Position numbers and translations under genes: made by a program
IMG/VR virus record: IMGVR_UViG_3300021957_000057
Span: 1 to 50,235 of that record
Source: a virus
Strand: one strand, 5' to 3'
DNA: 50,235 nt
Shown: in pieces, positions 11,817-39,392 of the stretch
How positions within the stretch are numbered: the first letter of the stretch is position 1
How the letters are laid out: each line of letters begins with the position of its first letter
Notes under the pieces: model-generated
Told to the model about the DNA's origin: nothing
The model's database searches: none
What the model saw: the letters and a program-made list of their open reading frames with translations, nothing else

Positions 11817-14800
11817 ATGGCAGATTTTTTATTAGACAGAATTAGATTTAAATGGAGAGCCGGTTGGGTATCTGGCACCGTGTACACTAAAGATGACGTA
11901 CTTTACTATAAAGGTAGAGTATATGTTTGTTTAGTTGGACACACAGCTGGCTCAGATATAAGAACTGATATTTCAAAATGGGACTTAATGTTTGCTGGGC
12001 AAGAATGGAAAGGCGACTGGCAATCTGGTGTTAATTACGGTATCGGTAACATTGTAAAGTTTAATGGTTATGTCTATAGATGTATATCTAATCACACTAG
12101 TGTTGTTGTAGTAAATATAGGATTGCCGGGTGATATTAATAACTGGACTCTCCTTGCTACTACCTATGATTGGAAAAATACATGGACAACTGGAGTTTAT
12201 TATAATTTAGGTGATGTTGTTAGATATAACGGTACTGTTTACATTTGTACAACTAAACATCAATCTGCGCTTGACTTTATACTTGGTTTAGAAGATGACC
12301 AAGCTAGTTGGACCACTGTTGTTACTTCTGATTATTGGGCAACAGATTGGGTTAATGATTCGAGATATACAGTAAACGATATTGTTAGATACGGCGGAAT
12401 TGTTTATAGGTGTACCGAAGGACATACTAGTGCAAGTACTACAACTTTAGGTTTAGAAAATGATCAATCAAAATGGGAAACTGTTTTAGATGGTATTGAA
12501 TATAAAACAACATGGAATACTGGCACTACATATAAATTAAATGATATTGTTAAAATAGATTCCTACTTATATATTTGTACAACTAATCATACTGCAAACA
12601 TATTTACTGACGAGCGTGCTAATTGGCAAATATGGATTCCCGGACTTGGCTACGAACAGTTATGGGAAGTTGCTGCAACGTATAACCAAGGAGATATAGT
12701 TTTATATGGTGGTTACACATATGCTGCATTACAAGAAAATACAGGAGTAAAGCCATCTGTTGACGGATTAGTTCAAGATTCAGGTAACTGGGAACTTATT
12801 ACAACCGGATATAGTCATAAAGGTGAATGGCAACTTGCTACTGAGTATCTAACCGGCGATGTAGTTAGACACGGAGGATACTTATATGTTGCTATAGGTG
12901 ATAGCACAGACAGTTATCCTGATACAGAAGTAGGCGCTTGGAAAGTAGTAATACCAGGATTTAAATTTAGAGCAGAGTGGACAGATGCAGCAACATACTA
13001 TCCAGGTGACATTGTTACATATGTAGGAACAGCGTATACTTGTATTTCAAGACATGTAGCAACATCGTCAGGTAGCAGACCCGACCTTGATCAAGACTAT
13101 ACACAAGAAAATTTTTGGGAACTTATATCTAAAGGTAGTGCTAATAACGTTCTTGCAGCAGTTGGAGATATGAGAGTATACGAATCTAATATAACTAATC
13201 TTGCAATTGGAACTCCAGGACAGGTTACTAAAATTGTAAATGACTTACCTAGTTTCCAAGACTTTGGTGTAGTTGATAACGTATACTTTGTTGGAGTAAA
13301 TGGAAGTGATACTGACGGATTTGGTTTTACTGAAAATGCTCCCTTTAGGACAGTAAGATTTGCATGTGCATATATACTACAAGACCCGGGTACTAGATCG
13401 CCCGCTACTGTTTATATTAAGACTGGAGTTTTTGAAGAAATTTTACCAATTAGTGTTCCTGCTGATGTAGCATTAGTAGGTGACGAATTAAGAAGTACTG
13501 TGATAACACCAGCAGCTGGATTTGAAGAATCTAACATGTTTTACGTTAGAAACGGCACCGGTATAAGAAATATGACTCTACGAGGATTATCAGGTACACT
13601 AGGATCTCAAAATCAATACTTAACACGTCGACCTTCTGCAGGAGCTTATGTAAGTTTAGATCCGGGCACAGGCACAACTGACAGCTCAGTGCAAATTACA
13701 AATAAATCACCATATATACAAAATGTAACAACGTTTGGTACTGGCTGTGTAGGTATGAAAGTTGACGGCAGTTTGCATGATAGCGGAAACAGATCAATTG
13801 TTGCAAACGACTTTACACAAGTACTAGACGACGGAATCGGCGTATGGATTACAAATGGAGGTCTATCAGAATTAGTGTCGGTATTTACATACTACAACCA
13901 TATTGGATATCTAGCAGAAAACGGTGGAAAGATGCGAGCCACAAACGGTAACAACTCGTATGGAACATACGGCAGTGTTTCTGAAGGAATTACAGACGGT
14001 ATAACTCCAATTTATGCTAGTGTTAATAATCAATCACAAGAAGCACAATTTGGAGTAATTCATAACAACGGTAACGAAATAATGGCAGTTTCTTACAGTC
14101 ATGCTGGACAAGGATATTCTTCTGCAACGCTTAATATTGCAGGTTCTGGTGCAAGTGCTAGTTTGACAATGAGTGATTTTAGAGACGGCGCAGTAAGTAA
14201 TGTTAGAATTAGTCCTCCAGGAGACAGTTCAACACCAGGCGGATTAAATTATACAAATATTGTAGGCGAAGCACAAACGGGCGACACTACAAGTATAACA
14301 CTTGATAATGGAGATCTGCAAACTGATGCTGCAAAATATCAAGGACAATTTATTTTTATTACAGGCGGTGCTGGTATAGGACAATATGGTGTTATAGATA
14401 CATATACTCCGGGTACAAAAATTGCAACAATTGTAAAACATAGTGATGGCACAGCTGGCTGGGATAGAATTAGTAGTAATTACGCAATTGCTACAGAATT
14501 AAATTTAACAACTCGTTATCAAATTGAACCGAGAGTTGTATTTTCTGCTCCAGGATCAGGAACAAGAGCATGGGGAAGAGCTGTTTTAGAAAGTAGTAGA
14601 ATTACAGGTATAAACATTTATGATCCTGGATCAGGCTATACAACACCTCCTACAATTACTGTTACAGACAACGAAGAAACAATTGATGCACAATTTGATG
14701 TTTTTATAAATGACGGTGTATTAGGATTGCCTACATTTGGTAATCGAGGCGTAGGATATATTAGATCAACTGGAACAATCACTGGCGACGGATTTGCAGA

Positions 14801-15620
14801 ACTATATCAAACAGGAAATGTTATAACGGTAAGTAATCTTATAAGATTACCAGGACCGGGTGATAACTTTTATATCAACGGTATAGATGATGTAATTTAT
14901 AAATTAACAAAAATAGAAAGTGTATCAGGAACCGAACCTAGTTTATCTGCAACAATCAGAGTATTTCCTACAATCGGTATAGAAGAATCTCCTGCACACA
15001 ATGCTGGAATTTCTATTAGACAAGATTATAGTCAAGTACGATTAACTGGACATGACTTTTTAGATGTAGGTTCAGGTAATGTTAGTAGTACTCGCTACCC
15101 ACAATTATATGTAGATGGCATAGATAGTTTAAACGCTCCACAGCAGCAAAACGAAGCAGTTGAATCTGGCGGCGGACGAGTATTTTACACAAGTACTGAC
15201 CAAGATGGTAACTTTAGAGTTGGTGAATTATTTGAAGTAGAACAAAGTACCGGTATTGTAACTATTGATGCTTCGCAGTTTGATTTAACTGGACTTACTG
15301 AACTAAGTTTAGGCGGAATACAAGTTGGCGGCAGTGCTGTTGTTATTAAAGAGTTTAGTAAAGAAAGTACATTTATTGCAAACAGTAATAATATTGTACC
15401 TACACAGGCTGCTATTATAAAATACTTGAACGGTAAGATTACTGGTGGTAGTTCAAATGCAACAACTAGTAAAATAACTGCTGGACAGGTTACCGCATCA
15501 AATAACGACATAGGTTCAACTGGCACAGTAATTAATGTGCCAGTACAAGTAAATTTCACTGGTGGAGTTAGTGGTGACTTACTAGCACACCAATTATTCA
15601 GAATACAATCAAATAGATAA
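11817..15620 (+). CDS. Giant fibre protein with eight N-terminal carbohydrate-binding-like repeats
   Basis: 1267 residues. Residues 8-440 hold eight repeats of about 50 residues with the pattern W..g..Y..gDiV.y.G..Y.C...H (for example YDWKNTWTTGVYYNLGDVVR). This is the signature layout of CBM5/12 chitin-binding type domains. A beta-helix domain begins near residue 488 (VYFVGVNGSDTDGFGFTENA, VALVGDELRSTVITPAAG). Two loop modules near 830-960 follow (YSSATLNIAGSGASASLTM, YDPGSGYTTPPTITVTDNEE). Residues 1121-1140 encode the GGRVFYTSTDQDGNFRVGEL element. I infer a sugar-binding side or tail fibre. It is paralogous to the next gene over its whole length. Confidence 0.75.
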   Translation: MADFLLDRIRFKWRAGWVSGTVYTKDDVLYYKGRVYVCLVGHTAGSDIRTDISKWDLMFAGQEWKGDWQSGVNYGIGNIVKFNGYVYRCISNHTSVVVVNIGLPGDINNWTLLATTYDWKNTWTTGVYYNLGDVVRYNGTVYICTTKHQSALDFILGLEDDQASWTTVVTSDYWATDWVNDSRYTVNDIVRYGGIVYRCTEGHTSASTTTLGLENDQSKWETVLDGIEYKTTWNTGTTYKLNDIVKIDSYLYICTTNHTANIFTDERANWQIWIPGLGYEQLWEVAATYNQGDIVLYGGYTYAALQENTGVKPSVDGLVQDSGNWELITTGYSHKGEWQLATEYLTGDVVRHGGYLYVAIGDSTDSYPDTEVGAWKVVIPGFKFRAEWTDAATYYPGDIVTYVGTAYTCISRHVATSSGSRPDLDQDYTQENFWELISKGSANNVLAAVGDMRVYESNITNLAIGTPGQVTKIVNDLPSFQDFGVVDNVYFVGVNGSDTDGFGFTENAPFRTVRFACAYILQDPGTRSPATVYIKTGVFEEILPISVPADVALVGDELRSTVITPAAGFEESNMFYVRNGTGIRNMTLRGLSGTLGSQNQYLTRRPSAGAYVSLDPGTGTTDSSVQITNKSPYIQNVTTFGTGCVGMKVDGSLHDSGNRSIVANDFTQVLDDGIGVWITNGGLSELVSVFTYYNHIGYLAENGGKMRATNGNNSYGTYGSVSEGITDGITPIYASVNNQSQEAQFGVIHNNGNEIMAVSYSHAGQGYSSATLNIAGSGASASLTMSDFRDGAVSNVRISPPGDSSTPGGLNYTNIVGEAQTGDTTSITLDNGDLQTDAAKYQGQFIFITGGAGIGQYGVIDTYTPGTKIATIVKHSDGTAGWDRISSNYAIATELNLTTRYQIEPRVVFSAPGSGTRAWGRAVLESSRITGINIYDPGSGYTTPPTITVTDNEETIDAQFDVFINDGVLGLPTFGNRGVGYIRSTGTITGDGFAELYQTGNVITVSNLIRLPGPGDNFYINGIDDVIYKLTKIESVSGTEPSLSATIRVFPTIGIEESPAHNAGISIRQDYSQVRLTGHDFLDVGSGNVSSTRYPQLYVDGIDSLNAPQQQNEAVESGGGRVFYTSTDQDGNFRVGELFEVEQSTGIVTIDASQFDLTGLTELSLGGIQVGGSAVVIKEFSKESTFIANSNNIVPTQAAIIKYLNGKITGGSSNATTSKITAGQVTASNNDIGSTGTVINVPVQVNFTGGVSGDLLAHQLFRIQSNR
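15171..15233 (+). repeat. 63-bp perfect direct repeat, copy 1
   Basis: These 63 bases are identical, including third codon positions, to 20207-20269 in the paralogous gene, while the flanks have diverged. They encode GGRVFYTSTDQDGNFRVGEL plus F. Confidence 0.9.
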
Positions 15621-15646: not shown

Positions 15647-18600
15647 ATGGCTGAATTTAAATTAGGTAGAATTAGATTTATATGGAAGGGTGCTTGGACA
15701 GGCACAACCGTATACTACAAAGACGACATCGTAAAGCATGGCGGTAGTACTTTTGTATGTACTACAGGATACACAAGTTCAAGTAATTTTGATACTGACT
15801 TCGCTACCTACTGGGACAAACTTGCCGATGGTCAAGAATGGAAAGGCGACTGGACAAACGCAACTGTTTATAAAATAAATGATATCGTAAAATATGGTGG
15901 TTATTTATATGTTGCAAATACAGCCCACACTGCTAATACGTTACTTGAAAATGATCAGTCTAAATGGGATCTTTACGCTGAAGGTTTTGATTGGAAAAAC
16001 ACCTGGGCAACTGGTACACATTATAAAGTCAACGATATTGCAAAATATAATGGTATAACTTATCTGTGTATTACAGCACATACTAGTGCTGCAACAGACG
16101 CATTAGGTTTAGAAGCAGATCAAGGCAACTGGCAGAAATTTACCGACGGTTTACAATGGCAAAGCGATTGGGCTATTAATACTAGATATCGTGTAAATGA
16201 TGTTGTTAAGTATGGCGGACAACTTTATGTTGTTAATACTGGACACACTAGTGCTGCAACAATTACATTAGGACTAGAAGCAGATCAAGCTAAGTTTGAT
16301 TATATGCACAAAGGCATCGAGTACAAAGGTACTTTTGCATCTAGTACACGTTATAAAGCAAATGACGTTGTTAAGTCGGGCGGCGGACTTTGGATATGTG
16401 TAACACCATACACTAGCCAAGATAGAATTAGTCAAGACGAAGCAAATTGGGCACAGTTTGTTGAAGGTCTAGAATTTGAAGACAGTTGGAATCCTACTAA
16501 AAATTATGATGTGGGCGATATTGTAACATACGGTGGTTACACATATGTTGCTAAAACTAACCATGTTGAAAAGCGTCCAACTGCTGAAGCAGCAGACTGG
16601 GACTTGTTCAATACTGGTTTCCGTTTTGTAGGTGAATGGGGCGATGATAGCTCACTAGAAGATTATCTAGTAGGCGATGTAATTAGACATAGCGGATTTA
16701 CTTATGTATGTACAACTGATCATCAAAACCAAGAACCACCAAATGCAACATATTGGGAAAAATTAAACGAAGGCTTTAAATGGAAAGGCGACTGGACTGA
16801 TGCTACATCATACGATTTAGGTGACGTAGTTGAGTATAACAGCAGCTCATATGTTGCTGTTGCAAAACACACATCCGATGAAACTGTTGCTCAAAACAGA
16901 CCAGACCAAGATACAAACGGTTCTGAATGGAACTTAATGGCAGGTGGTCCTGAAAATAATGTAATGACTACTGATGGCGACATGGTTTACTATAGTGGCT
17001 CTGGCCCAGCTAGATTGCCTGTAGGACAAGTAGGACAAATTCTACGTGTAAATTCTTTAGCCACAGCACCTGAATGGGGCTTCTATGGCGCTATTGATAA
17101 TGTTGTTTACGTTGACATTAACGGAACAGACGGCGCAGCACCTAGCTTTGGTACAACTATTGATAGACCGTTTAAAACTATTAAACATGCAGCGTATAAT
17201 ATTGAAAATGGATATTTACGTCCAAATGCTCGCAAGCTAATTCAATTAAATGCGGCATTTATTGCAGACGAAACAGTAGAATGGGTAGATGCACAAGTTA
17301 CAGCAAATGCTGGCAGTCCATTTACTAATGCGTTTACTTATGATAAAGCAGCTTGGAGAGTATATGTAGGACGTTTAGTTTCGGCACTACTTTATGATTT
17401 AGGCCATAGTGGCAACGAAGAATCACGCAAACTAACATTAGCAATTTATAATGCTGCTGACGTTACAGGTAAAACAGCAGAATTTGTTGCAACAATAGAG
17501 TATGCAGAAACAGTTATAGATGCTATAATAAGTAATGTTGCACCAGCAGCTATATTTGGATCATTGACTAGACATACTGATGTAACACTTATAGAAGAAT
17601 CAGGAGCGCAAACTTTTATTGGCAATCTTATTGATATTCTTACAGATGCAGTAACAGCAGGTGATACTACTGGAGTACCTGCAGAATCACAACCACAAAA
17701 TACTATACTTGTAAAAACTGGACAATTTACTGAAGTAGGACCGATTGTTGTACCTAAAAACACAGCAATCGTCGGTGACGAATTGCGCTCTACTAAAATT
17801 AGTCCGGCTGGTAGTTTGGTAGCAAATGCAGACGTAGCATATAGTTTAGATGGAATTTCTAGACTACAAGCAGTTATGAGTCTTGCTGTTACTAACCCTG
17901 CTGGTATTACTAAATCCACAGGTAATGCACTAGACCCGATTGCAACACATGTTGTGGGATCCGGTGCTGCTGGTACAGCAGCCGCTGGTATTGTACAAGA
18001 TATATATGATCATATTGATTTTGAAATTAATGCTACAGGAACTAAACCAACACTAGCAGGTAGTAATGCTCCTTTAACATCTACAGACTATACATATGCA
18101 ATTGAATCTATTGAAGCAAATAGAGAATTTTTGAAAGCAGAAGTATTAGCATACATTGCAGTTACATATCCTTTATACGTTTATGATACAGCAGCATGTG
18201 CTAGAGATGTTGATCGTTATATTGATGCAGTAAAATATGATTTGCTGTATACAGGAAATTATAAAGCAATCAGAGCCGCAACAGCATATGTAAATTCAGT
18301 ATCAGGTTCGACACTTAAAGATTTGTTTTATGTTAGAAACGGAACTGGTCTAAGAAATTGTACACTAACCGGTTTGACTGGATCACTAGGTGCTGCTAAC
18401 GCATACGGAACTAAACGTCCTACAGCAGGCGCATTTGTAAGTTTAGATCCGGGTTTTGGTACAGCAGACGAACACGCTTGGATTACTAATAAATCACCAT
18501 ATGTACAAAACGTAACAACATTTGGTACTGGTTGTATAGGTATGAAAGTTGACGGCGACTTACACGCAGGAGGCAACGACTCAATTGTTGCAAACGACTT

Positions 18601-20650
18601 TACGCAAATTTTAAGTGATGGCATTGGCGTATGGGTTACTAACTTAGGCAGATCAGAACTTGTTAGTGTGTTTTCATACTACGGACACATTGGTTACTTA
18701 GCAGAGAACGGTGGTAAGATTCGTGCTACAAATGGTAACTCATCATATGGTGACTACGGTACTGTTGCTGAGGGTATTGACTCAACTGAAACTGCTATAA
18801 CAGCAACAGTAGATAATTATTCAACTGAAGCAAAAATTACTAATGTACTAACAGACGGAAATAATATTCTTACTTTTGAATATCTAAATGCCGGTGTAGG
18901 TTATACAGCTGCTACTGATGCATTGCTTACTATAGAAAATCAAAGCGGTACAGACAGCTCTAGAGCAGAAGGTACATACGTTGGAGTTACTGGTGCAACA
19001 AGCGCAAGCGGTACAGGACAAGAATTTGATATTATAGTAGATTCTAATGGATTTACTAGTGTAGTTATTAACAAAGGCGGCAGTGGATTTGTTGTTGGAG
19101 AAACGGTTACAATTGCAGATTCATTACTTGGCAGCGGCGGCGCAGCGAATTTAACTTTTGACGTTGCTACAATCGGTGATGCTACAGAATTTACAGTCAC
19201 AGGCGAAGGCTTTGGCGCAGATATAGCATCAGTTAATGTTAATGACGGCGGAGTATTTGAAGTTAGACTAACTGACCCATCATCAAACTTAGGTGGCGAC
19301 GGATTTGTAGACGCAACTAATACTGGTCAAACTGGTAGTGCAACGCAGATTACATTGAGTAACACTGACATATCTTTGAGTGCTGCTTATGTAGGAATGG
19401 CAATATTTATTAAAGCTGGAACTGGCGCAGGACAATACGGATACATTGACACTTACAATAGTGGTACAAAAATTGCTACTATTAAGAAATGCAGTGACGA
19501 TTCTGCAGGTTGGGATCACGTAACAGGCGCAGCAATTGAAACACTTCTAAATGATACTACAGAATATTTAATTGAACCAAGAATAACATTTAGCGGCGGC
19601 GGCGTAACAGCATATGCTGATATTGCTAAGGCTCGTGCAAGAGTAAGCGATGAAAAAATTGTAGAAATACGTATTTGGGATTCAGGTAACGGGTATACAA
19701 GTGCTCCTACTATGACAGTAACTGATCCTAACAATACTGTTGAAGTTCCGCACTTAGTGAGAATCGGCGACGGAGTATTAGGACAGCCAACATGGACAAA
19801 TAGAGGTACAAACTTTACAACAGCACAATCTGAAGTTACTGGTGATGGATATGCAGACTTATACCAACCCGGTAACGTTATAGCAGCCGAAGGCTTAACT
19901 GCTGTTCCACAAGCTGGTTCAAATGTTGAAATAGCCGGAATAGCAGGAACATTCTTTAAACTTGTTGCTGTTAGAGATTTATCAGGAACTGGACCGTATA
20001 GAGCTACACTTCAATTATCGCCAGAAATTAGTATTACTGATGCTCCAGAGCACGGCGAAGGCTTAGAAATGCGTATACGCTATAGTCAAGTAAGATTAAC
20101 TGGACACGATTTCCTAGATATTGGCACTGGTAACTTTGCAAATACTAACTATCCAGGTGTTCCTTTAATAGATCCAGATCCGCTTAAAGAAACAAACGAC
20201 TTCAATGGCGGACGAGTATTTTACACAAGTACTGACCAAGATGGTAACTTTAGAGTTGGTGAATTATTTAGTGTTGAACAGGCAACAGGTGTTGCTACTC
20301 TTGACGCTGACGCATTTAATATCAGCGGACTACAAGAACTACAACTTGGCGCACTTAGTTTAGGCGGCACAAATGCTACAATTACTGAGTTTAGTACAGA
20401 CGGTACATTTACTGCTAACAGTGATAATATTGTTCCAACACAAAAAGCGATTAAAACATATATACAATCACAAATTGGTGGCGGTGCAGGTGAACTAAAT
20501 GTAAACCAACTTACTGCTGGTAATATAAGAATTAGTGGTGATACTATTACTAATACAGCCGAAACAGCGATAAATATAACTACTAATGTAAACTTTACCG
20601 GCGGAGTAACCGGCGATCCAGTTGCATTGAATTATTTTTTACTATCATAA
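15647..20650 (+). CDS. Giant fibre protein, paralogue with eight carbohydrate-binding-like repeats
   Basis: 1667 residues, with the same plan as the gene before it: eight W...Y..nDiVkyGg..Y repeats (residues 8-440), a beta-helix from about 487 (VYVDINGTDGAAPSFGTTID), then GSGFVVGETVTI-type loops and the DQDGNFRVGELF element near residue 1530. It is 400 residues longer because of two helical insertions, about residues 525-640 and 810-890. The second includes CARDVDRYIDAVKYDLLYTG, a module also found in the 2144-aa protein at 29950. I infer a long, probably trimeric receptor-binding fibre. Two paralogues side by side suggest duplication and later divergence of specificity. Confidence 0.75.
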   Translation: MAEFKLGRIRFIWKGAWTGTTVYYKDDIVKHGGSTFVCTTGYTSSSNFDTDFATYWDKLADGQEWKGDWTNATVYKINDIVKYGGYLYVANTAHTANTLLENDQSKWDLYAEGFDWKNTWATGTHYKVNDIAKYNGITYLCITAHTSAATDALGLEADQGNWQKFTDGLQWQSDWAINTRYRVNDVVKYGGQLYVVNTGHTSAATITLGLEADQAKFDYMHKGIEYKGTFASSTRYKANDVVKSGGGLWICVTPYTSQDRISQDEANWAQFVEGLEFEDSWNPTKNYDVGDIVTYGGYTYVAKTNHVEKRPTAEAADWDLFNTGFRFVGEWGDDSSLEDYLVGDVIRHSGFTYVCTTDHQNQEPPNATYWEKLNEGFKWKGDWTDATSYDLGDVVEYNSSSYVAVAKHTSDETVAQNRPDQDTNGSEWNLMAGGPENNVMTTDGDMVYYSGSGPARLPVGQVGQILRVNSLATAPEWGFYGAIDNVVYVDINGTDGAAPSFGTTIDRPFKTIKHAAYNIENGYLRPNARKLIQLNAAFIADETVEWVDAQVTANAGSPFTNAFTYDKAAWRVYVGRLVSALLYDLGHSGNEESRKLTLAIYNAADVTGKTAEFVATIEYAETVIDAIISNVAPAAIFGSLTRHTDVTLIEESGAQTFIGNLIDILTDAVTAGDTTGVPAESQPQNTILVKTGQFTEVGPIVVPKNTAIVGDELRSTKISPAGSLVANADVAYSLDGISRLQAVMSLAVTNPAGITKSTGNALDPIATHVVGSGAAGTAAAGIVQDIYDHIDFEINATGTKPTLAGSNAPLTSTDYTYAIESIEANREFLKAEVLAYIAVTYPLYVYDTAACARDVDRYIDAVKYDLLYTGNYKAIRAATAYVNSVSGSTLKDLFYVRNGTGLRNCTLTGLTGSLGAANAYGTKRPTAGAFVSLDPGFGTADEHAWITNKSPYVQNVTTFGTGCIGMKVDGDLHAGGNDSIVANDFTQILSDGIGVWVTNLGRSELVSVFSYYGHIGYLAENGGKIRATNGNSSYGDYGTVAEGIDSTETAITATVDNYSTEAKITNVLTDGNNILTFEYLNAGVGYTAATDALLTIENQSGTDSSRAEGTYVGVTGATSASGTGQEFDIIVDSNGFTSVVINKGGSGFVVGETVTIADSLLGSGGAANLTFDVATIGDATEFTVTGEGFGADIASVNVNDGGVFEVRLTDPSSNLGGDGFVDATNTGQTGSATQITLSNTDISLSAAYVGMAIFIKAGTGAGQYGYIDTYNSGTKIATIKKCSDDSAGWDHVTGAAIETLLNDTTEYLIEPRITFSGGGVTAYADIAKARARVSDEKIVEIRIWDSGNGYTSAPTMTVTDPNNTVEVPHLVRIGDGVLGQPTWTNRGTNFTTAQSEVTGDGYADLYQPGNVIAAEGLTAVPQAGSNVEIAGIAGTFFKLVAVRDLSGTGPYRATLQLSPEISITDAPEHGEGLEMRIRYSQVRLTGHDFLDIGTGNFANTNYPGVPLIDPDPLKETNDFNGGRVFYTSTDQDGNFRVGELFSVEQATGVATLDADAFNISGLQELQLGALSLGGTNATITEFSTDGTFTANSDNIVPTQKAIKTYIQSQIGGGAGELNVNQLTAGNIRISGDTITNTAETAINITTNVNFTGGVTGDPVALNYFLLS
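20207..20269 (+). repeat. 63-bp perfect direct repeat, copy 2
   Basis: Identical to 15171-15233 at every base; see that entry. The two copies lie about 5 kb apart in the same orientation and could support recombination between the two fibre genes. Confidence 0.9.
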
Positions 20651-24156: not shown

Positions 24157-25152
24157 ATGAAAAAAGCATTTTTTATCAACGGCGGCGCTGGTAGAGTTCT
24201 TTGTAGTATACCTGCATTAGAATATTATAAAGAACATACTGACCCTGATGTTGTTATCGTTGTAGAAGCATGGCAAGAACTTTTTCTTTCTACAAGTTTA
24301 AGAAAAAACGTATACACCGGCAATGGAGGTGATTTATTTAATCTATTAAAAGATAGAGAAATAGTAAGCCCTGAGCCTTATAGACTAAATGCATATTATA
24401 ATCAGCGTGTTAATTTAATACAAGCATTTGATATGTTGATTAACGGTGTTGATGATACTGTTGAGGGCAAGCCTATAAATTTAGATTTAGGAAAAGCTGA
24501 TCAAATATATGGGTATAATTTAGTTAATCAAGTTAAGCAACAAATGAAAAAAGAAAAAATGATTGTGTTCCAGCCATTTGGAAGTGGTGCTAAAATGGAA
24601 GGTAACTTCATTTACGACACAAGTGGTAGAAGTTTTGAATTAAAAGATATTTTTAGAACTGTTGAAGAATTATCAAAAGACTATGCTATAATACTAATGA
24701 CTCAAATTCACATACCTTCAGATCAGCCCATGGGTGCAGCAATACCAGATAATGCATCTTTATCACAATGGATGGGTATTGTAAATGCAGCAGACTATTT
24801 CCTCGGCTGTGATAGTATGGGTCAACATTATGCACATGCATTAGGTAAGCCGGCTACTGTAGTAATAGGCTCTACATTTCCAGAGAATATAAGTTATCCT
24901 GGAAATAAAGACTTTACTATTATAGACAATGCTAAACAAACACGCACTTATCAGCCATTTAGAATTACAGGAGATCCTGTATCAGAAAGAGACAACGAAG
25001 ATAATATGATTTTAACAGATGAAAATTTTGAAATAATGATTAAAAGTGTAAAAAATAAATTAGGAACAGGAACCAAAAATTCAATATTTGGATCTAATTT
25101 GTCAAAAGATGAAAACCAACCTTTTAAAAATAAGACAGGAGGTAAAGCATAA
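24157..25152 (+). CDS. GT9-like glycosyltransferase (heptosyltransferase-type)
   Basis: 331 residues. The N-terminus MKKAFFINGGAGRVLCSIPA resembles the G-x-G-D loop region of ADP-heptose:LPS heptosyltransferases. The C-terminal Rossmann half has AADYFLGCDSMGQHYAHALG followed by KPATVVIGST, the family's nucleotide-sugar binding signature (usual form GxDSGpxHlAaAlg). It probably transfers a sugar from a nucleotide donor to a surface or virion glycan in the cytoplasm. The phage also encodes ADP-heptose enzymes at 36.4-39.4 kb, so a heptose donor is attractive but unproven. The tail after residue 290 is low-complexity. Its stop overlaps the next start (TAATG). Confidence 0.75.
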   Translation: MKKAFFINGGAGRVLCSIPALEYYKEHTDPDVVIVVEAWQELFLSTSLRKNVYTGNGGDLFNLLKDREIVSPEPYRLNAYYNQRVNLIQAFDMLINGVDDTVEGKPINLDLGKADQIYGYNLVNQVKQQMKKEKMIVFQPFGSGAKMEGNFIYDTSGRSFELKDIFRTVEELSKDYAIILMTQIHIPSDQPMGAAIPDNASLSQWMGIVNAADYFLGCDSMGQHYAHALGKPATVVIGSTFPENISYPGNKDFTIIDNAKQTRTYQPFRITGDPVSERDNEDNMILTDENFEIMIKSVKNKLGTGTKNSIFGSNLSKDENQPFKNKTGGKA

Positions 25153-26957
25153 TGGATAGTGGTTATATTTTAGGCATTGCTAGAGGTCATAATGCAGGAG
25201 TTTGTTTATTAAAAGATGGAGAAATTGTTTTTGCTTTAGAAGAAGAAAGATTGACTAGAGCAAAATACGACGGCGGCCCTTATGCAACAATGATAAAAGT
25301 AAAAGAGTATACTGATAAAGTAGATGCTATTGTAATATCACATACGCAATCATTACAAGATACAGCAGGCAAAGTAGATTTTAGTGGCGACGATGTGTAT
25401 ACAGGATTGGCCCGCAAACTAGGACTTATATCTCGTAAAGAAAATAATCACGATCATCCTCAAGTATTTGATTTAAGTGCTCATCATCATAAAATACACG
25501 CAGCTTGCGCATTTTATAGAAGCGGATTTGATGAAGCTGCTGCTGTGATAGTAGATGGAGCCGGAACAGTACACCCTGCACAATCAGGTAGCATTACTAC
25601 TGCTGCATGGGAAGTAGAAAGTATATTTGATTGTTCTTATCCTGATTACATAAAAACAATATATAAACATTTTGGATCACGAGACCCTATTCCTACAGTT
25701 ATACACAATGAGGTTTCGAGTGAAAGATATGGTGAAGACGGAAGTCATACAGAGATAATTAGTGGACACGCCGGCATTGTTAAGGTATATGAAGCTGCTA
25801 CTGAATATTGTGGTTTTACTGCTATTGAAGCAGGAAAAGCAATGGGATTATTTCCATACGGCGAACCAAACGATAAAATTCCTCCGTTGTTTAATAAAGA
25901 TACAAAATTTCCGTTATCAAATAAGAATGTAATAGTTCCTACATATCCAAACGGCGCATTTGTTAATCTTTTTAATTACAGTGAATTATCAAAAGAAGGT
26001 GCAGAGTATGACCCAGATTTTGATTATACTAAACTGAAATCAAGAAGAGATATGGCATATGCTTGTCAAAAAGAAACACAAGCACAAGTACTTGATTTAA
26101 TTAAAACTGCTGCTAAATTAACTGGTAAAAATAAAGTTGTAGTTAGCGGCGGATATGGATTAAACTGTGTTGCTAATTATGAGTATTTAAAAGACTTAAG
26201 AACTGAAGGTATTGAATTGTTTGTTGAGCCTATTTCAAACGACGGCGGCACAGCTATCGGTGCAGCACTATTATATTACCATAGTATTCATAAATCAGAT
26301 CTACGTAGATCAAGGGAAATATATTTAGGACCTCAGTATCATTATACTGATGAAGAAATTTTAGATTTAGCTTCAAAATACAATGGTATAGTTACAGATG
26401 CAACGCATACAGATGTTATTGAATTAATGACTAGCAAAAATATTGTTGCTAACTTTCAAGGTAGATCAGAATCTGGTCCACGTGCGTTAGGTAATCGTAG
26501 TTTAATGTTTGATCCGACATTTGAAGACGGCAAAGACTTTGTTAACGAAATTAAACGCAGAGAATATTTCCGGCCGTTTGCTGGATCTATTCTTGCTGAG
26601 GATGTACACGAATGGTTCGATTTGCGGGGCATGGAAGATAGTCCTCATATGATGTATGCTGTTAATTGTCAACCTGGAGTTGCTGAAAAAATTCCTAGCA
26701 TTATTCATGTAGACGGTACATGTCGTATCCAAACTGTGACTAAAGAAGAAAATCCTCATTACTATGATATTATTAAAGAATTTAAAGAAAAAACAGGTTG
26801 TCCTATTATCTTTAATACAAGTTTTAATCTAGGCGGTGAGCCTCTAGTTGAAACACTTGAAGATGCATTATGGACTCTACAAGAATCAGATATTGAATAT
26901 CTTTACTTGCCTGAGTATGGAAAATTAATTACAGTTGGAAATTGGAAGATTGCGTAA
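25152..26957 (+). CDS. Carbamoyltransferase of the NodU/CmcH/TobZ family
   Basis: 601 residues, full family length. The N-terminal Kae1-like domain has GHNAGVCLLKDGEIVFALEE, the metal-binding HHHKIHAA motif, EAGKAMGLFPYGEP and VVSGGYGLNCVANYEY. The C-terminal domain has FQGRSESGPRALGNRSLMFD and GCPIIFNTSFNLGGEPLVET. These enzymes move a carbamoyl group from carbamoyl phosphate, through carbamoyl-AMP, to a sugar hydroxyl in antibiotics, Nod factors or glycans. The start has an ideal AGGAGGT at 25137-25143 and overlaps the GT9 stop, so the two are made together. The likely role is O-carbamoylation of the glycan built by the GT9; the acceptor is unknown. Confidence 0.9.
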   Translation: MDSGYILGIARGHNAGVCLLKDGEIVFALEEERLTRAKYDGGPYATMIKVKEYTDKVDAIVISHTQSLQDTAGKVDFSGDDVYTGLARKLGLISRKENNHDHPQVFDLSAHHHKIHAACAFYRSGFDEAAAVIVDGAGTVHPAQSGSITTAAWEVESIFDCSYPDYIKTIYKHFGSRDPIPTVIHNEVSSERYGEDGSHTEIISGHAGIVKVYEAATEYCGFTAIEAGKAMGLFPYGEPNDKIPPLFNKDTKFPLSNKNVIVPTYPNGAFVNLFNYSELSKEGAEYDPDFDYTKLKSRRDMAYACQKETQAQVLDLIKTAAKLTGKNKVVVSGGYGLNCVANYEYLKDLRTEGIELFVEPISNDGGTAIGAALLYYHSIHKSDLRRSREIYLGPQYHYTDEEILDLASKYNGIVTDATHTDVIELMTSKNIVANFQGRSESGPRALGNRSLMFDPTFEDGKDFVNEIKRREYFRPFAGSILAEDVHEWFDLRGMEDSPHMMYAVNCQPGVAEKIPSIIHVDGTCRIQTVTKEENPHYYDIIKEFKEKTGCPIIFNTSFNLGGEPLVETLEDALWTLQESDIEYLYLPEYGKLITVGNWKIA

Positions 26958-27003: not shown

Positions 27004-27792
27004 TTAATATCCTGGAACAAATGCAGACTCACCGCGGTCTGTTGCAATATGATATTCAGATATTTGATTTTCTAAAAATTCTGTATTATTTTTTGATATT
27101 ATTTTTTCTTCAAAACTAGTTGTTAGATCTAATATCTTATTATTTGTAAAAGTATTGTATAATTTGTCTTCTAATATTTTATGATTATTTTTTGTAAGAT
27201 GTCCTGCTCTTCTATCTATAGTATTAGAAAACTTATTATAAAACCATTCTGTATCTTGTTTACTTTTAAATTCATTATAGCAAACATCAAACAGACTTCC
27301 TTTAACAGTATATCTATGACTTACTGGAAATCCATCATGTTCAAATCCAGGAATTGCTATAAGATTCCAGTTAAATTTATCTGTCATATAGTGAATAGAT
27401 CCTAACATTTTTTTAAAATTTAATTGTGACTTTCTGTAAAACTGTAAATTATTAGCATACCCTACAATAGCATTGTATTGATCTCTACTTACATGCTTAT
27501 GTAGATCGTCTACGTAAAAATTTGAAAAAGTTGGTTGCTCTTCAATTAACCATTCTCTACTTGAAGATGATGTAATTACTATGACATAATCTTGAGGACT
27601 TATTTCCTCGGCATGTAAATCGATTTCATGATGTATATAATCATTACCAACACCCCATTGAGAAAAGTTTTTATACTCAGTACAATTTAATCGTTTTCCT
27701 AAACTGTATGCCCAAAACCAAGGAGTAATTTTTTGATTATTATTTGCTAAGTGCGTTCCGTAACTATCACCAAAAATCCAAATTTTAGACAT
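27004..27792 (-). CDS. SGNH/GDSL-type hydrolase-like protein
   Basis: 262 residues. All main SGNH blocks can be seen: KIWIFGDSYG at residues 3-12 with the expected nucleophile Ser10, FSQWGVGNDYI with Asn50, and DRRAGHLTKNNHKIL with Asp193 and His198. Family members deacetylate or de-esterify sugars and lipids. Next to a glycosyltransferase and carbamoyltransferase it could remove or transfer acyl groups on a glycan. GAGGA lies 11 bases before the ATG. The adjacent leader at 28504-28563 carries a fossil copy of its first 13 or so codons, so there were once two tandem copies. The substrate is unknown. Confidence 0.7.
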   Translation of the reverse strand: MSKIWIFGDSYGTHLANNNQKITPWFWAYSLGKRLNCTEYKNFSQWGVGNDYIHHEIDLHAEEISPQDYVIVITSSSSREWLIEEQPTFSNFYVDDLHKHVSRDQYNAIVGYANNLQFYRKSQLNFKKMLGSIHYMTDKFNWNLIAIPGFEHDGFPVSHRYTVKGSLFDVCYNEFKSKQDTEWFYNKFSNTIDRRAGHLTKNNHKILEDKLYNTFTNNKILDLTTSFEEKIISKNNTEFLENQISEYHIATDRGESAFVPGY

Positions 27793-35900: not shown

Positions 35901-36384
35901 TTCAGTGTTAACTGCCAATGAAGCGTTGGTTAATAGAAACTTTGCATATTTTGCTAAAGCAAGTTTTGAAGCATCGGGTGCAGGGATTGGCACAGAACTA
36001 TCCAACGGCGGCAGTGTTACATTCCCAGCTAACACATTGATCAACAGTGTTGACTTGTTAGACTTCGGCGGCACAGAGTACTATGAAGTGCAGTTTAATA
36101 ATGCGTTTATTGGTACACTAGCAGTGGGCTCAGGTACAGTAGAATTTACGTTTGTGCAACCACCGTATGCACAGCCTGGAGAAACAGTATTCTCATTCAT
36201 TGCAACACCAGGTGAACGTGCTAGTTTAGACTTATCGCAGTTGAAAGAGCTTACAAACACGCCGCTAGGTGGACGAGGAACATATCCAAATGGTCCAGAT
36301 GTACTAGCACTTAACGTGTATAAAGTTGGCGGAGTCGCAACTGATGCAAATATTATTCTAAGATGGGGCGAAGCACAAGCCTAA
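29950..36384 (+). CDS. Giant modular virion protein (2144 aa)
   Basis: It is built from repeated modules. TPTGATYAPATGVLTLTIG (near residue 54) and FTPSGATYTPTTGAMSITIG (near 244) are two copies of one domain. Between them lies CERDVGYVVDAYLKDLRYGG, a helical module shared with the protein at 15647. Residues 795-1215 hold five repeats of about 85 residues with GdxxxIxGxxLGGTSPxNDxxI. The C-terminal 500 residues (MLRGADGNFVFAHRMRNSNV, LSPSVSNALIGDLGERELLN) are a conserved block of large structural proteins in marine T4-like phages. There is no clear enzyme motif. I infer a long tail or baseplate fibre. It ends in a hairpin shared with the convergent gene. Confidence 0.7.
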   Translation: MAKTQIKNYVFKPGLGATDNLYPNAYSLINANKSFIQKEMSAYIADKVAAAAQYTPTGATYAPATGVLTLTIGTHNFNVGDAIIIADGGLTFTNASAGAVPFFDKALIITAVSANTSVTVNAGISTDLTAHSWVSSVANATQDVFFNYTNTSVLKCERDVGYVVDAYLKDLRYGGNQNVYNTIKYYWDQTVAQVDGDRGAELSAHNFIGRLIKDYILTKTSYTASNTEVTQTITGTASETTAQFTPSGATYTPTTGAMSITIGEHTLAAGDEIHIAPGGITFTCALDGGATLHPYPRAVGVPNTKGKDPYYYAPITITSVTSTTITVNVGISSDTSLHTFSSAVANSITAGPSAKINTLVFNTVDVISNGLNALPKFIHTGVGTIKIQGRYDLDQLILITNVTSNDIIYNFSAPATGGLVSLKTDKVSEDTDFVKYLETTDAITTITLNYDTSGHSSTDDLQLFVEELENGKSVVTTRPYDFGTDAIERLRIAQPQSMLDADFEYGLQPTKWAAIATMRGYPSVYEVPGTDTPVLSVVTDASAGTDGIGQSLITVTTVGPHNIPVGTPITIKALEDSVNGAARAEGSFVVVEAPTTNTFTYYAKSKVGTVNPTTLSTTYTQLRQAAFYTGAAIGEPTVTVVSNGSAGTMVAELDIASGSTIIPFDGPSPEVGSPLTNANIPTGSQVTSIVDTSAGGGEYITPLVTTSLLGGETSITVDDATGIVPNLAIDRGDGTAIYVNSVAGSTVNMSGEFVGALTANNESYTNIAPQPNDPAGVNLLVNITTGGGSYTLSGIQNSGENYQIGDRILIVGTDLGGTSPTNDLVMVVDTVDSANGIATVTLTGNAVTGAETYSNVSGTYLSGTGTQAAFDISYLNNVYTVVDVTSPDLSAGYQVGDVVVINGATIGGTAVTHDITIQVDSIGAGGGIVSVTATGTAPDAALSFNNPSSSTNSVSGTGIQFNIDTSGSTYSATIINDPADGLPYGDNYLPGETVTVLGTELGGATPANDCTITIDNVNGNGAPTAVSVTGTAYNGNSFTGRSSDNRLGSGAEFDIVLAVGAYTPTIATAGTGYNVGQKFVIQGGTDVPGTSPANDLTITVTAVDDISTGVITAISHTGTAVTGTATFNGVTGTTQPLEGSGLRLDITRAAGTYSSVTINDGGADYSVGNSFTIEGINLGGTSPINDVYVRITSVDGSGAATAIIDESDSAPAGHQFTFISTVVVTDATSGPISKNATITYGALATLEITLNNAHGLVPGDTFIVTSASDDGVNNHALSAGSFFATDIPAVNKLRYQARATGTIDATTSSILGTLYSRPDSFFVHRPYDGGVQLGTGGPQHGAQAIRQSKKYIRYQSGKGIMYTTGALFAPSYDLRSLTADGVEVGSLITIETDDNDHGVQVGGIVRILGVETPGYNSGSETAVPPQFDYTVESVIDERTFTVRAQRRLGATTAILGFGSQMSVVAWHGATVRSGIFDDQNGIFWEFDGTQISVAQRTGTRQLAGTIALNVDDNLVAGTNTRFLDQLKAGDRIIIKGMTHVVSHVNSQTEITVTPDFRGVVNISGAKANLIVDKKTKQKDFNLDTLDGTGPSGYDIDIAKMQMIGIQYSWYGAGFIDFMLRGADGNFVFAHRMRNSNVNTEAFMRSGNLPVRYEVSNEGPSGKLREALDISQVTIPLTDSSFFPDYGTVYIDNEIMTFTSNDKTTNTLTGVTRGATFTNFQAGATRSYTAAAATTHTDRTGVVLISQTITPLISHWGSAFITDGMFDDDRGYIFSYAENQVNVSTTKQSAFLIRLSPSVSNALIGDLGERELLNRAQLLLQGIEVTSDGTDGTNDIVGGIVIEGILNPQNYPLNPADIGWTGLSGVAQGGQPSFAQIASGGSVNWSTGDAATTATATSQSSISADINSGIYNSPNNRNYVYIDTADYQTTFGTTGRGPVLGKTITGSNIRANTTITDVYISGSYGYFRLSRNTNGQTSSGTVGAFSVLTANEALVNRNFAYFAKASFEASGAGIGTELSNGGSVTFPANTLINSVDLLDFGGTEYYEVQFNNAFIGTLAVGSGTVEFTFVQPPYAQPGETVFSFIATPGERASLDLSQLKELTNTPLGGRGTYPNGPDVLALNVYKVGGVATDANIILRWGEAQA
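32320..33600 (+). repeat. Five in-frame protein repeats of the GGTSPxND type
   Basis: Five consecutive units occur in the giant protein. Each has Y..Gd...I.G..lGGTsP.ND..I.V..V...G....v..TGTA, about 85 residues including spacers. They differ at the DNA level, so this is an old array, not a recent tandem expansion. Confidence 0.75.
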
Positions 36385-36395
36385 AGGGCTTGTGC
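36373..36395. terminator. Hairpin holding both stop codons of convergent genes
   Basis: GCACAAGCC at 36373-36381 pairs perfectly with GGCTTGTGC at 36387-36395. The stop of the plus-strand giant gene (TAA 36382-36384) and that of the minus-strand phosphatase (TAG, 36383-36381) overlap in the loop and stem. No T-run follows, so termination may be weak or need a factor. Confidence 0.6.
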
Positions 36396-37025
36396 AAACT
36401 CCCAAAGATTATCAAACACAAGTGTTTGTTTTTTAATCTGTTTGTATGCGTGTTTGTTTAATTGTTTTTCAGTTTCTAAACCATAGCCAGTTCTAACTAG
36501 TATAGGCTTAGCACCTATTTTGTAAGCAGCCTTTAAGTCACTAAGTTTGTCACCAACAAAAAAACCTTTTGAAAATTTAATAAATGAATGTTCTTTTTCG
36601 CATCTTTTAAACATTCCTATATTTGGTTTAGCGTATATATCCTGTTTTCTACTACTGGTACTATAATATATTGCATCAATACTAGGACATCCTGCTTGTC
36701 CTAAAAGCTGTAGCATTTTATTATGCACTTGTTCTACATCATTAGTAGTCATTAAACCTTTTTCTATTCCGCCTTGATTAGTAATAACTGCTATTCTATG
36801 ACCCTTAGATCGTAGTAGTGCAACAGCTTCTAAACTGTTGGGTATAGGTTGAAAATATTCAGGGGAAGTTACATATGTGCCTAAGTCTACATTAAGCACA
36901 CCGTCACGATCTAAGCCAACAACTGGTTTATTGTAATCATTATTAGTATTAGTATTAGTATTATTACTACTAAATTCTGATCCAGTATTACCTACAAACG
37001 CATTATCTAAAACACTTCTAGCCAT
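36381..37025 (-). CDS. gmhB: GmhB-like heptose bisphosphate phosphatase (HAD family)
   Basis: 214 residues from the ATG at 37025, which follows AAAGGA by seven bases; the frame continues upstream only to a TTG. HAD motif I is GLDRDGVLN with Asp39 and Asp41. VITNQGG and VGDKLSDLKAA follow, and LVRTGYG is as in GmhB. The family removes the C7 phosphate of D-glycero-D-manno-heptose 1,7-bisphosphate. The zinc-binding cysteine loop of E. coli GmhB is replaced by STSSRKQDIYAKPN, so this is a zinc-less variant. The N-terminal 30 residues are Asn/Thr-rich, coded by a hexanucleotide repeat. It overlaps the cupin gene by 8 bases and ends the heptose operon. Confidence 0.82.
   Translation of the reverse strand: MARSVLDNAFVGNTGSEFSSNNTNTNTNNDYNKPVVGLDRDGVLNVDLGTYVTSPEYFQPIPNSLEAVALLRSKGHRIAVITNQGGIEKGLMTTNDVEQVHNKMLQLLGQAGCPSIDAIYYSTSSRKQDIYAKPNIGMFKRCEKEHSFIKFSKGFFVGDKLSDLKAAYKIGAKPILVRTGYGLETEKQLNKHAYKQIKKQTLVFDNLWEFAQAL
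36942..36959. repeat. Hexanucleotide microsatellite in gmhB
   Basis: ATTAGT is repeated three times, with partial units on both sides. On the coding strand this gives alternating Asn-Thr codons near residues 22-30 of the phosphatase. Six-base slippage would change length without shifting frame. Confidence 0.8.
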
Positions 37026-37413
37026 TTTTTTCCTTTGACGTTTGACTATCTCCAGGAGCAACTCTATAGTTGTCCTCTACGCTGTCTGCTGTTGACACTT
37101 CAGTAATACTAGAACTTCCCTGTAGACAGATTAATCTATGTGGTTGTAGTGGAGGGTTATGCCAGACATCGCCTTCGTTTAATTCTTTTTCATACAATCC
37201 GGCATTTGTAGTATCAATCCATTGTACTTTAAATTTACCAGTATTTACAAACCATGTTTCTTCTTTTTCTCGATGAAAATGCATACTAAATTGAGCACCT
37301 TCTTTCTCAAAGAACATAATTTTTCCACAGTACTTGTCAGTGGATGCCCAAATTAATTCGTAGCCCCATCCTTTAGGAACAACTCCGCTAAGTCTAGTTG
37401 GTTCATTTTCCAT
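37018..37413 (-). CDS. Cupin, phosphomannose isomerase-like
   Basis: 131 residues, a single cupin barrel. Motif 1 is FSMHFHREKEETWFVNTGKF with His45 and His47 plus Glu51/Glu52 as candidate metal ligands. Motif 2 is GDVWHNPPLQPHRLICL. It begins with WGYELIWASTDKYCGKIMFF, as in the cupin domain of type II mannose-6-phosphate isomerases. It overlaps hldD by 11 bases and gmhB by 8, so it belongs to the heptose operon. It could isomerise or epimerise a sugar phosphate, perhaps in place of or in addition to GmhA, but that is a guess from context. It may also be a non-catalytic sugar-binding protein. Confidence 0.72.
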   Translation of the reverse strand: MENEPTRLSGVVPKGWGYELIWASTDKYCGKIMFFEKEGAQFSMHFHREKEETWFVNTGKFKVQWIDTTNAGLYEKELNEGDVWHNPPLQPHRLICLQGSSSITEVSTADSVEDNYRVAPGDSQTSKEKNG

Positions 37414-38221
37414 TAATATAATCCTCTATGTTTGTCCACTGCATATCTACTACACTATTTAAATTAGTTAGATCTGCACAGGTATAACTTTGGTATTGTG
37501 ATTTCATGTTATCTGGCATTGGTATGTATTCAATGTCGCCGCCGTGTTTGTTGACAATCGATTGCGCTACTGTTTCAAACCTTACTGGACGTCCTGTACC
37601 TACATTAAAGATGCCTGATTGATCTACATCAAACATTTTTTCATGTAGTCTACATATATCGTCTACACATACAAAATCTCTAAGATAATTATTACTATCT
37701 TCAAATAACTTAATTACACCGTTGTCTTTAGCTTGATATGCAAATTTAGTATACGGACTTGCTTGATCACCTTTGTGTTCTTCGCCTTCCCCGTAAACAT
37801 TAAAGTAACGGAAGCCTTGTATTTTAATGGCAAATTCATCTATGTATTGATTTATAAATCTATCAAACAAATACTTTGACCATGCATACGGCGATTGCGG
37901 TAATAACGGACCGTTCTCAGTAAAATGTGTAGTTGGACCGTAAACACTTGCACTAGATGCATATTGTAAATTAGTACCAAAGTTTTCACATATTTGTGCT
38001 AGTCTAACACTGAACTCAAAATTTTGTTCTAGTATTTGATTCACATCAGTAAAGGTAGTTGAACTAATTGCACCCAAGTGTATACACCAATCATAGCCTT
38101 CAGTATGTGGAAGCACACCTGGCTCCCATTCCCATCCTTCTACTTCGTGTCCTTGTTGCTGTAAATAACTTGCAACATTTTTTCCAATAAATCCTTGATT
38201 TCCTGTAACTAAAATTTTCAT
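37403..38221 (-). CDS. hldD: ADP-L-glycero-D-manno-heptose 6-epimerase (HldD)
   Basis: 272 residues, an extended SDR epimerase. It has the NAD(P)-binding GNQGFIG (residues 7-13), the catalytic YAWSK (Tyr112, Lys116), and stretches typical of HldD and not of general epimerases: HLGAISSTTF, GFRYFNVYGEGEEHKGDQAS, KLFEDSNNYLRDFV, SGIFNVGTGR, IEYIPMPD and YTCADLTNL. It converts ADP-D-glycero-D-manno-heptose to the L-glycero form. It is shorter than E. coli HldD (310 aa). The ATG overlaps the hldE stop (ATGA). Function is well supported, but no activity is known for this protein. Confidence 0.92.
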   Translation of the reverse strand: MKILVTGNQGFIGKNVASYLQQQGHEVEGWEWEPGVLPHTEGYDWCIHLGAISSTTFTDVNQILEQNFEFSVRLAQICENFGTNLQYASSASVYGPTTHFTENGPLLPQSPYAWSKYLFDRFINQYIDEFAIKIQGFRYFNVYGEGEEHKGDQASPYTKFAYQAKDNGVIKLFEDSNNYLRDFVCVDDICRLHEKMFDVDQSGIFNVGTGRPVRFETVAQSIVNKHGGDIEYIPMPDNMKSQYQSYTCADLTNLNSVVDMQWTNIEDYINGK

Positions 38222-39357
38222 TTGCTGTTCTCTATAATCTGTGTTGTTGAATACCCGTTTACTGTAGGAATAATATGTACGTTGGCTAAGTCATGTCCCA
38301 CAACAGTTTCAACAGTATAATCTCCGCCTTTTACAATTAAGTTGGGCTGTATATGTTTAATTAACTCATAAGGAGTATCTTGTTCAAAAACGTGAACTTC
38401 GTCTACCCATGGTAGTATAGATATTTGTTCAACACGTTTTTCTATATTGTTTACTGGACGATCGTTGCCCTTTAGGCGTTTTACACTTGCATCTGAATTA
38501 AGACCAACCACAAGTTTGTCGCCTAAGCTACGTGCTTCTTTTAGTAAATTAAAATGTCCTGTGTGCATAATATCAAACACACCGTTTGTAAAGATTACAC
38601 GTTCTTCAATATCATTGTGTGTAAGTATATGTGTACCTACGTGCTGTACTGCACGTCTAGAGCCCTTTATAGCAAGTTCTAAACATTGCGTATAATCATA
38701 ATTCTTAGTTAAGCCGTATACAAATGCAGCTGAGAAACAATCGCCTGCACCAGTAACATCTGACACTTCTACTTGTGCAACAGGCAGATTATAATCAACA
38801 CCGTCTATACTAGCAAGTACATTATCGCCAGCATTAGTAGTAATAATATTACCTTGCCACTGACAAAAACCAAACTTAGTAAATTCAACATTGTTAGGTT
38901 TTACTAACCATGCGTCTTTGTATTGGGTTGCATGTTCTTTAGGATCTACAATAATCTTACAATCAAACTTATTAATATGTTCAATAATTCTTAGAGATTC
39001 GTCTAGTACACCTTTGTTATAATCACTTAATATTACATAATCGTAATCACTAAAATCTCGTGATAGAATATAATCAAGGTATTGTTTACTGTCTGCGTGA
39101 TAATCGTTATCAATGCGTGTGACATAATGTCCATCACAAATCACTCTAGTTTTGACACTTGCTTCGTCAAAGATATCAACTAATTCAACATCAACACCTA
39201 AACTTTTAAGATTCTCATATACAAGTCCTGCGCCGCCAATTGTTTGAACTTCACGGTTATATGTTACAACAGGGACAGGAGCCTCAGGACTTATCCGAGT
39301 GCTTGTACCGTAAATATATGTGTCGATGATTATGTCGCCAAGAACTAATACTTTCAT
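38218..39357 (-). CDS. hldE: Bifunctional heptose kinase/adenylyltransferase (HldE)
   Basis: 379 residues. The N-terminal PfkB kinase (about 1-245) begins MKVLVLGDIIIDTYIYG and carries RISPEAPVPVV, typical of heptose 7-phosphate kinases, and DVTGAGDCFSAAF with base Asp206. The C-terminal nucleotidyltransferase (250-379) has FTNGVFDIMHTGHFNLLKEA (HxGH at 265-268) and NSDASVKRLKG. It makes heptose 1,7-bisphosphate and, after GmhB, ADP-heptose. It is about 100 residues shorter than E. coli HldE (477), with the loss in the kinase half. The first gene of a four-gene operon, it lies behind a perfect sigma70 promoter and seems to lack a 5' leader and ribosome binding site. Confidence 0.92.
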   Translation of the reverse strand: MKVLVLGDIIIDTYIYGTSTRISPEAPVPVVTYNREVQTIGGAGLVYENLKSLGVDVELVDIFDEASVKTRVICDGHYVTRIDNDYHADSKQYLDYILSRDFSDYDYVILSDYNKGVLDESLRIIEHINKFDCKIIVDPKEHATQYKDAWLVKPNNVEFTKFGFCQWQGNIITTNAGDNVLASIDGVDYNLPVAQVEVSDVTGAGDCFSAAFVYGLTKNYDYTQCLELAIKGSRRAVQHVGTHILTHNDIEERVIFTNGVFDIMHTGHFNLLKEARSLGDKLVVGLNSDASVKRLKGNDRPVNNIEKRVEQISILPWVDEVHVFEQDTPYELIKHIQPNLIVKGGDYTVETVVGHDLANVHIIPTVNGYSTTQIIENSK

Positions 39358-39363
39358 AGTTTT

Positions 39364-39392
39364 ATTATACTTTCTTTTGTATTATTTGTCAA
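39364..39392 (-). promoter_or_regulatory. Perfect sigma70 consensus promoter of the heptose operon
   Basis: On the minus strand TTGACA (39392-39387), a 17-base spacer and TATAAT (39369-39364) match the consensus at every position. The predicted start is at or within a base or two of the hldE ATG at 39357, which implies a leaderless mRNA. The -35 box lies over the last codons and stop of the Nudix gene. Confidence 0.85.

Follow-up and report, generated by a model that had tools for sequence, protein, structure and literature searches.

ADP-heptose is made in Escherichia coli by the GmhA-HldE-GmhB-HldD pathway. The chemistry of GmhA is the phosphomannose isomerase reaction with one more carbon. 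Heptose gene clusters are already known from phages, and the sugar clusters of the cyanophages P-SSM2, S-CAM1, S-SSM7 and P-TIM68 contain HldE domains, HldD and a cupin (T4-GC307). Here, we propose a second class of sedoheptulose-7-phosphate isomerase, non-homologous to GmhA and exchanged in place with it, namely the cupin family found in jumbo marine phages, in cyanophages, in DPANN archaea and in a few bacteria. With it, these phages could make ADP-heptose without the GmhA of their hosts. We judge this proposal to be quite likely. The assignment of the cupin as an isomerase appears to be new. Among the papers searched, none linked a cupin with both ADP-heptose and GmhA, or with a sedoheptulose and heptose isomerase.

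The stretch of DNA analysed here, hereafter the window, corresponds to one IMG/VR record in full (50,235 nt), which is itself a fragment. It encodes gp23, gp15, gp13 and the tail sheath, which bears out the T4-like context proposed in the initial annotation, and also long tail proteins. The operon described below is also present on a 335-kb contig that was binned into a Neomarinimicrobiota MAG and that shares synteny with the window between gp23 and the tail tube (237 to 286 kb of the contig). Therefore, the window phage is most likely a jumbo T4-like phage. Besides this 335-kb jumbo phage contig, the same MAG contains a near-duplicate of 153 kb, which also carries the operon (L092, L093, L249-L265). 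The structural genes beside the operon show DNA similarity to Pseudomonas PA5oct-type phages.

The four-gene operon is real, and the overlaps of 4, 11 and 8 nt given previously for its minus-strand reading frames hldE-hldD-cupin-gmhB proved exact. It encodes a bifunctional D,D-heptose-7-phosphate kinase and heptose-1-phosphate adenylyltransferase (hldE, 38218..39357, 379 aa), an ADP-glyceromanno-heptose 6-epimerase (hldD, 37403..38221, 272 aa), the cupin (37018..37413, 131 aa), which is the predicted sedoheptulose-7-phosphate isomerase replacing GmhA, and a gmhB-like D,D-heptose-1,7-bisphosphate 7-phosphatase of the HAD type (36381..37025, 214 aa from the ATG, or 226 aa from an alternative TTG start at 37061). 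The gmhB gene overlaps the tail gene on the opposite strand by 4 nt. Of 80 related loci in IMG/VR, nearly all share the order nudix-HldE-HldD-cupin(-GmhB), which hence is not a matter of chance. GmhB is missing in L074-L080, where the cupin is retained. In the further viral loci with the cupin, hldD was located within 5 kb in 74 of 74 cases and hldE within the same distance in 72 of 74. Several relatives (L004, L019, L021, L048, L053 and L055) carry differing oxygenase-like genes of ~600 nt between HldE and HldD, some of which are related to a 2OG-Fe(II) oxygenase of the window; these inserts are perhaps tailoring genes.

Profile searches against NCBIfam and Pfam upheld the families of HldE, HldD and GmhB, with scores below the curated NCBIfam cut-offs for all three proteins. 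HldE matched NF008454 (8e-80), TIGR02198 (1.7e-48) and TIGR02199 (4e-47), with a score of 268.7 against a curated cut-off of 521, and contains both the PfkB and the CTP_transf_like domain of Pfam in one protein. Its kinase domain covers about residues 1-250 and its adenylyltransferase domain about residues 250-378. The kinase domain is thereby shortened (~250 aa, versus ~315 aa usually); it retains the GAGD motif and gave PDB matches to the heptose-7-phosphate kinase 4e84. HldD matched TIGR02197 (5.2e-68; score 229.5, cut-off 274.6) and E. coli AGME (PDB 1eq2, 9.7e-47), with conservation of the catalytic YxxxK and HKG motifs. GmhB matched NF006506 (3.6e-39) and PDB 4pnh (1.1e-22), and has the HAD motifs of heptose bisphosphate phosphatase. 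The Cys/His zinc loop that precedes the KP motif elsewhere is absent in GmhB, which reads YSTSSRKQDIYAKP versus CPHTADDHCDCRKP in 4pnh. None of the three was placed in another sugar family, and their catalytic motifs are kept. On their sequences, they are divergent members of the expected families.

A perfect sigma-70 promoter (TTGACA-17-TATAAT, 39364..39392, minus strand) ends 6 nt before the ATG of hldE. Transcription of hldE is therefore predicted to start with the A of this ATG, which would produce a leaderless mRNA. All 39 distinct upstream sequences of relatives with a fused HldE match the promoter at 11-12 of 12 positions, as do 34 of 34 further loci selected by an HldE identity of at least 55%, while none of 2000 shuffles scored 12. 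Part of the -35 element falls within the end of the nudix coding sequence, and only the -10 element is free of coding constraint. Because of this conserved sigma-70 promoter before hldE, the operon can be regarded as having its own host-type promoter; it is also located just downstream of gp15. The conserved leaderless promoter is new here. The T4 late promoter TATAAATA was considered for the operon and rejected, since its occurrences were fewer than expected by chance and none was found before the operon.

The initial annotation assumed that these phage enzymes cover all steps of the pathway except the isomerase. This is probably wrong, since the cupin, whose role was overlooked, is the best candidate for the isomerase. 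We found no SIS-fold GmhA within the 50,235 nt of the window, none among 52 related viral records, including the complete cyanophages P-SSM2 and S-T4, and none on the syntenic 335-kb contig; the SIS matches of its MAG are on other contigs. The cyanophage "phosphoheptose isomerase" T4-GC306 was rejected as the missing GmhA, since it has the DxDGT motif of HAD proteins and gave a few weak matches of the HAD type. A SIS_2 search of the cyanophage genomes that bear T4-GC306 returned nothing. More generally, L081:13312-13656 and the homologues of T4-GC306 are annotated as phosphoheptose isomerase and look like HAD phosphatases, and the cupin beside these homologues is annotated as cysteine dioxygenase, which looks wrong as well.

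An alternative explanation might be that the phage uses the GmhA of its host, and that the cupin catalyzes another sugar step (e.g., epimerization or tailoring) or has a regulatory role. Phages often borrow host enzymes. However, a tailoring enzyme would be expected alongside GmhA, and of 121 genomes in the picocyanobacterial family only 33 gave any match to gmhA. Most picocyanobacterial-type hosts of the cyanophage relatives therefore seem unable to supply the first step. We consider the use of a host GmhA unlikely. Instead, the cupin is probably a non-homologous sedoheptulose-7-phosphate isomerase in the place of GmhA.

The isomerase assignment is supported by the active site of the cupin. 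The best PDB match of its profile was the D-lyxose isomerase 2y0o (5.6e-6, improving to 1.6e-7 when the profile was widened); its score against Pfam Lyx_isomer was below the family cut-off. Six residues are invariant, H45, H47, K50, E52, H92 and E105, and these correspond to H75, H77, K86, E88, H143 and E156 of the D-lyxose isomerase TsLI. They include all metal ligands of D-lyxose isomerase (H, H, E, H, here H45, H47, E52 and H92) as well as K50 and E105, the counterparts of the catalytic K86 and E156. Activity is lost when the positions equivalent to TsLI K86, E156 and D163 are changed (PMC8378251). The D163 column holds D in the cyanophage and archaeal members and V112 in the clade of the window, which argues against an isomerase; close to V112, D114 is invariant. 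AlphaFold modelled the cupin with confidence (pLDDT 92.9). A fold search with this model returned many cupins, including D-lyxose isomerase (rank 29) and 7zvy, a small phosphomannose isomerase of archaeal origin (TM 0.81 by target length). By itself, the fold search could not tell isomerases apart from other cupins; most cupins have other functions, and the many kinds recovered are in line with a different role of the cupin beside a host GmhA.

Evidence against such a different role comes from archaea, where the cupin occupies the place of GmhA. In a genome scan, the cupin turned up in operons of Woesearchaeota, together with HldD, a kinase, GmhB and an adenylyltransferase. In a sample of 194 Woesearchaeota genomes, in which an HldE-type kinase was counted at 288 bits or more, the genomes with this kinase comprised 11 with only the cupin, 20 with only GmhA, none with both and 3 with neither (Fisher p=1.3e-6, uncorrected for kinship). 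Counting the 117-bit SIS protein of a separate GHMP-kinase cluster gives one genome with both (p=2e-5), and at the loosest thresholds the exclusivity weakens to p=1e-4, again without correction for kinship in either case. In bacteria the cupin was too rare in the sampled classes for replicates of this test (1 strong match in 198, and 1 in 247).

Gene order points in the same direction. L228 and L230 have an RHH-NTP transferase gene on the minus strand followed by GmhA, HldD and kinase, and in L109, L111, L112, L213 and L214 the cupin takes the slot of GmhA between the same neighbors. Likewise, L233 encodes a kinase-GmhA fusion followed by an adenylyltransferase-GmhB fusion, and L218 and L220 a kinase-cupin fusion followed by an adenylyltransferase-GmhB fusion; a GmhB-cupin-adenylyltransferase fusion is found in L217. 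The shared slot, the shared fusion position and the mutual exclusivity together form, as read from these genomes, the pattern of non-orthologous displacement. The Woesearchaeota of L109, L111, L112, L213 and L214 have complete operons of the ADP-heptose type, and in several of them a GT9 gene lies nearby; the use of ADP-heptose in archaea seems little noted. One such archaeon has a separate cluster of GHMP kinase, SIS GmhA, GmhB and a transaldolase-like gene, of the GDP-heptose type (L196:488-3263).

Two cases fit less well with a cupin isomerase. In the phage SynMITS9220M01, the cupin and an SIS GmhA are both present, each near its own GHMP-type kinase, a coexistence that favors reliance on GmhA with another task for the cupin. 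In Marinoscillum, the cupin homologue stands alone, with no adjoining heptose genes.

The window contains a second cluster on the plus strand, with a gene for a GT9 heptosyltransferase-like glycosyltransferase of the GT-B type (24157..25152; phrog_8954) that overlaps by 1 nt with a gene for a NodU/CmcH-type O-carbamoyltransferase (25152..26957; PF16861 1.7e-58, PF02543 1.4e-27). The heptosyltransferase-like GT9 gene had been noted before. For the window protein alone this claim is weak, since its match to PF01075 (E=0.02) is below the Pfam cut-off and a PDB profile search gave nothing useful. It gains strength, however, from the aligned relatives, 27 of 27 of which matched PF01075 (best 1.8e-7), and is borne out by the fold, as the best 29 PDB matches were to TibC, which ranked first, the GT9 structure 3tov, WaaF and WaaC. 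Immediately upstream of the GT9-like gene are the genes of two very long tail proteins (11817-15620 and 15647-20650, plus strand), with 5-7 carbohydrate-binding modules (CBM_5_12) each. A 262-aa protein without a convincing family match is encoded at 27004-27792 (minus strand); its sequence starts with GDSYG, resembling an SGNH hydrolase, and it adjoins the carbamoyltransferase in several relatives.

Of 80 related loci, 78 have the carbamoyltransferase next to the GT9-like gene. GmhB-cupin comes directly after this pair in L266 and L270, whereas all genes of the module are contiguous in L273, L276, L278, L280 and L283, as in P-SSM2. Because they are joined in these relatives, the two clusters of the window are one module split by tail genes.

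We regard the following pathway as likely. The cupin, as a metal-dependent aldose-ketose isomerase of the D-lyxose isomerase type, would convert sedoheptulose 7-phosphate into D-glycero-D-manno-heptose 7-phosphate. With flux through the pathway as predicted, the HldE kinase would phosphorylate this product at C1, GmhB would remove the 7-phosphate, the C-terminal domain of HldE would add the adenylyl group, and HldD would epimerize C6. The GT9-like enzyme would then transfer the heptose to its presumed acceptor, either a tail protein of the virion or a glycan on the host surface, and the NodU-type enzyme may carbamoylate the heptosylated product. The missing zinc loop of GmhB, and its loss in some relatives, argue against the full pathway.

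What the glycan is used for can be read in two ways. We see roughly an even chance that the module glycosylates the virion, where the GT9-like enzyme would act like TibC on tail proteins, followed by carbamoylation. The module is located among tail genes, with the CBM-bearing ones directly upstream of the GT9-like gene, and the best fold match, TibC, is a protein heptosyltransferase (PMC4358343). Furthermore, the LPS of marine Synechococcus WH8102 and CC9311 contains no heptose (PMC4515613), and hence use in the LPS core is unlikely for the cyanophage relatives. Yet, WaaC/WaaF-like folds match nearly as well as TibC, and the promoter of the operon is host-type, not late. Both points would suit a module that alters the LPS or capsule glycan on the surface of the host, perhaps as a means of excluding other phages, since the strong conserved sigma-70 promoter fits the host RNA polymerase. 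The same reading has been published for the LPS genes of pelagimyophages (PMC7029224). We put it forward tentatively, as the tail-gene setting and the heptose-free LPS of known hosts of the cyanophage relatives weigh against it.

If the cupin is indeed an isomerase, the first heptose step would be filled in many phages and archaea that seemingly lack GmhA. It would also correct the widely copied annotations of the HAD protein as phosphoheptose isomerase and of the cupin as cysteine dioxygenase. Moreover, marine phages would be able to make, by a self-sufficient route, a sugar that is not used in the LPS of their known cyanobacterial hosts.

Like D-lyxose isomerase (2y0o, TsLI 7nzo), the phage cupin has a cupin fold, the active-site residues HxH..KxE..H..E and an EVST-like motif after the last metal ligand; D-lyxose isomerase is an aldose-ketose isomerase that yields the manno configuration, similar to the role predicted here. 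In contrast, the cupin is smaller (131 aa) and distant in sequence, has the additional invariant residues K14, K31 and R117, and its predicted substrate is a phosphosugar. The GT9-like protein shares its fold with the heptosyltransferases TibC, WaaC and WaaF, but is only 10-12% identical to them and is paired with a carbamoyltransferase. Compared to the E. coli pathway, the phage has homologues of HldE, GmhB and HldD, here in one operon, whereas it differs in being phage-borne, with a cupin instead of GmhA, a short kinase domain and a GmhB without zinc loop. The cyanophage sugar clusters are similar in gene content, and P-SSM2 and S-CAM1 also share the GT9-like gene and the carbamoyltransferase with the window. 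However, HldE is split in the cyanophage clusters, the small HAD protein T4-GC306 takes the place of GmhB, and their proteins are only 30-45% identical to those of the window.
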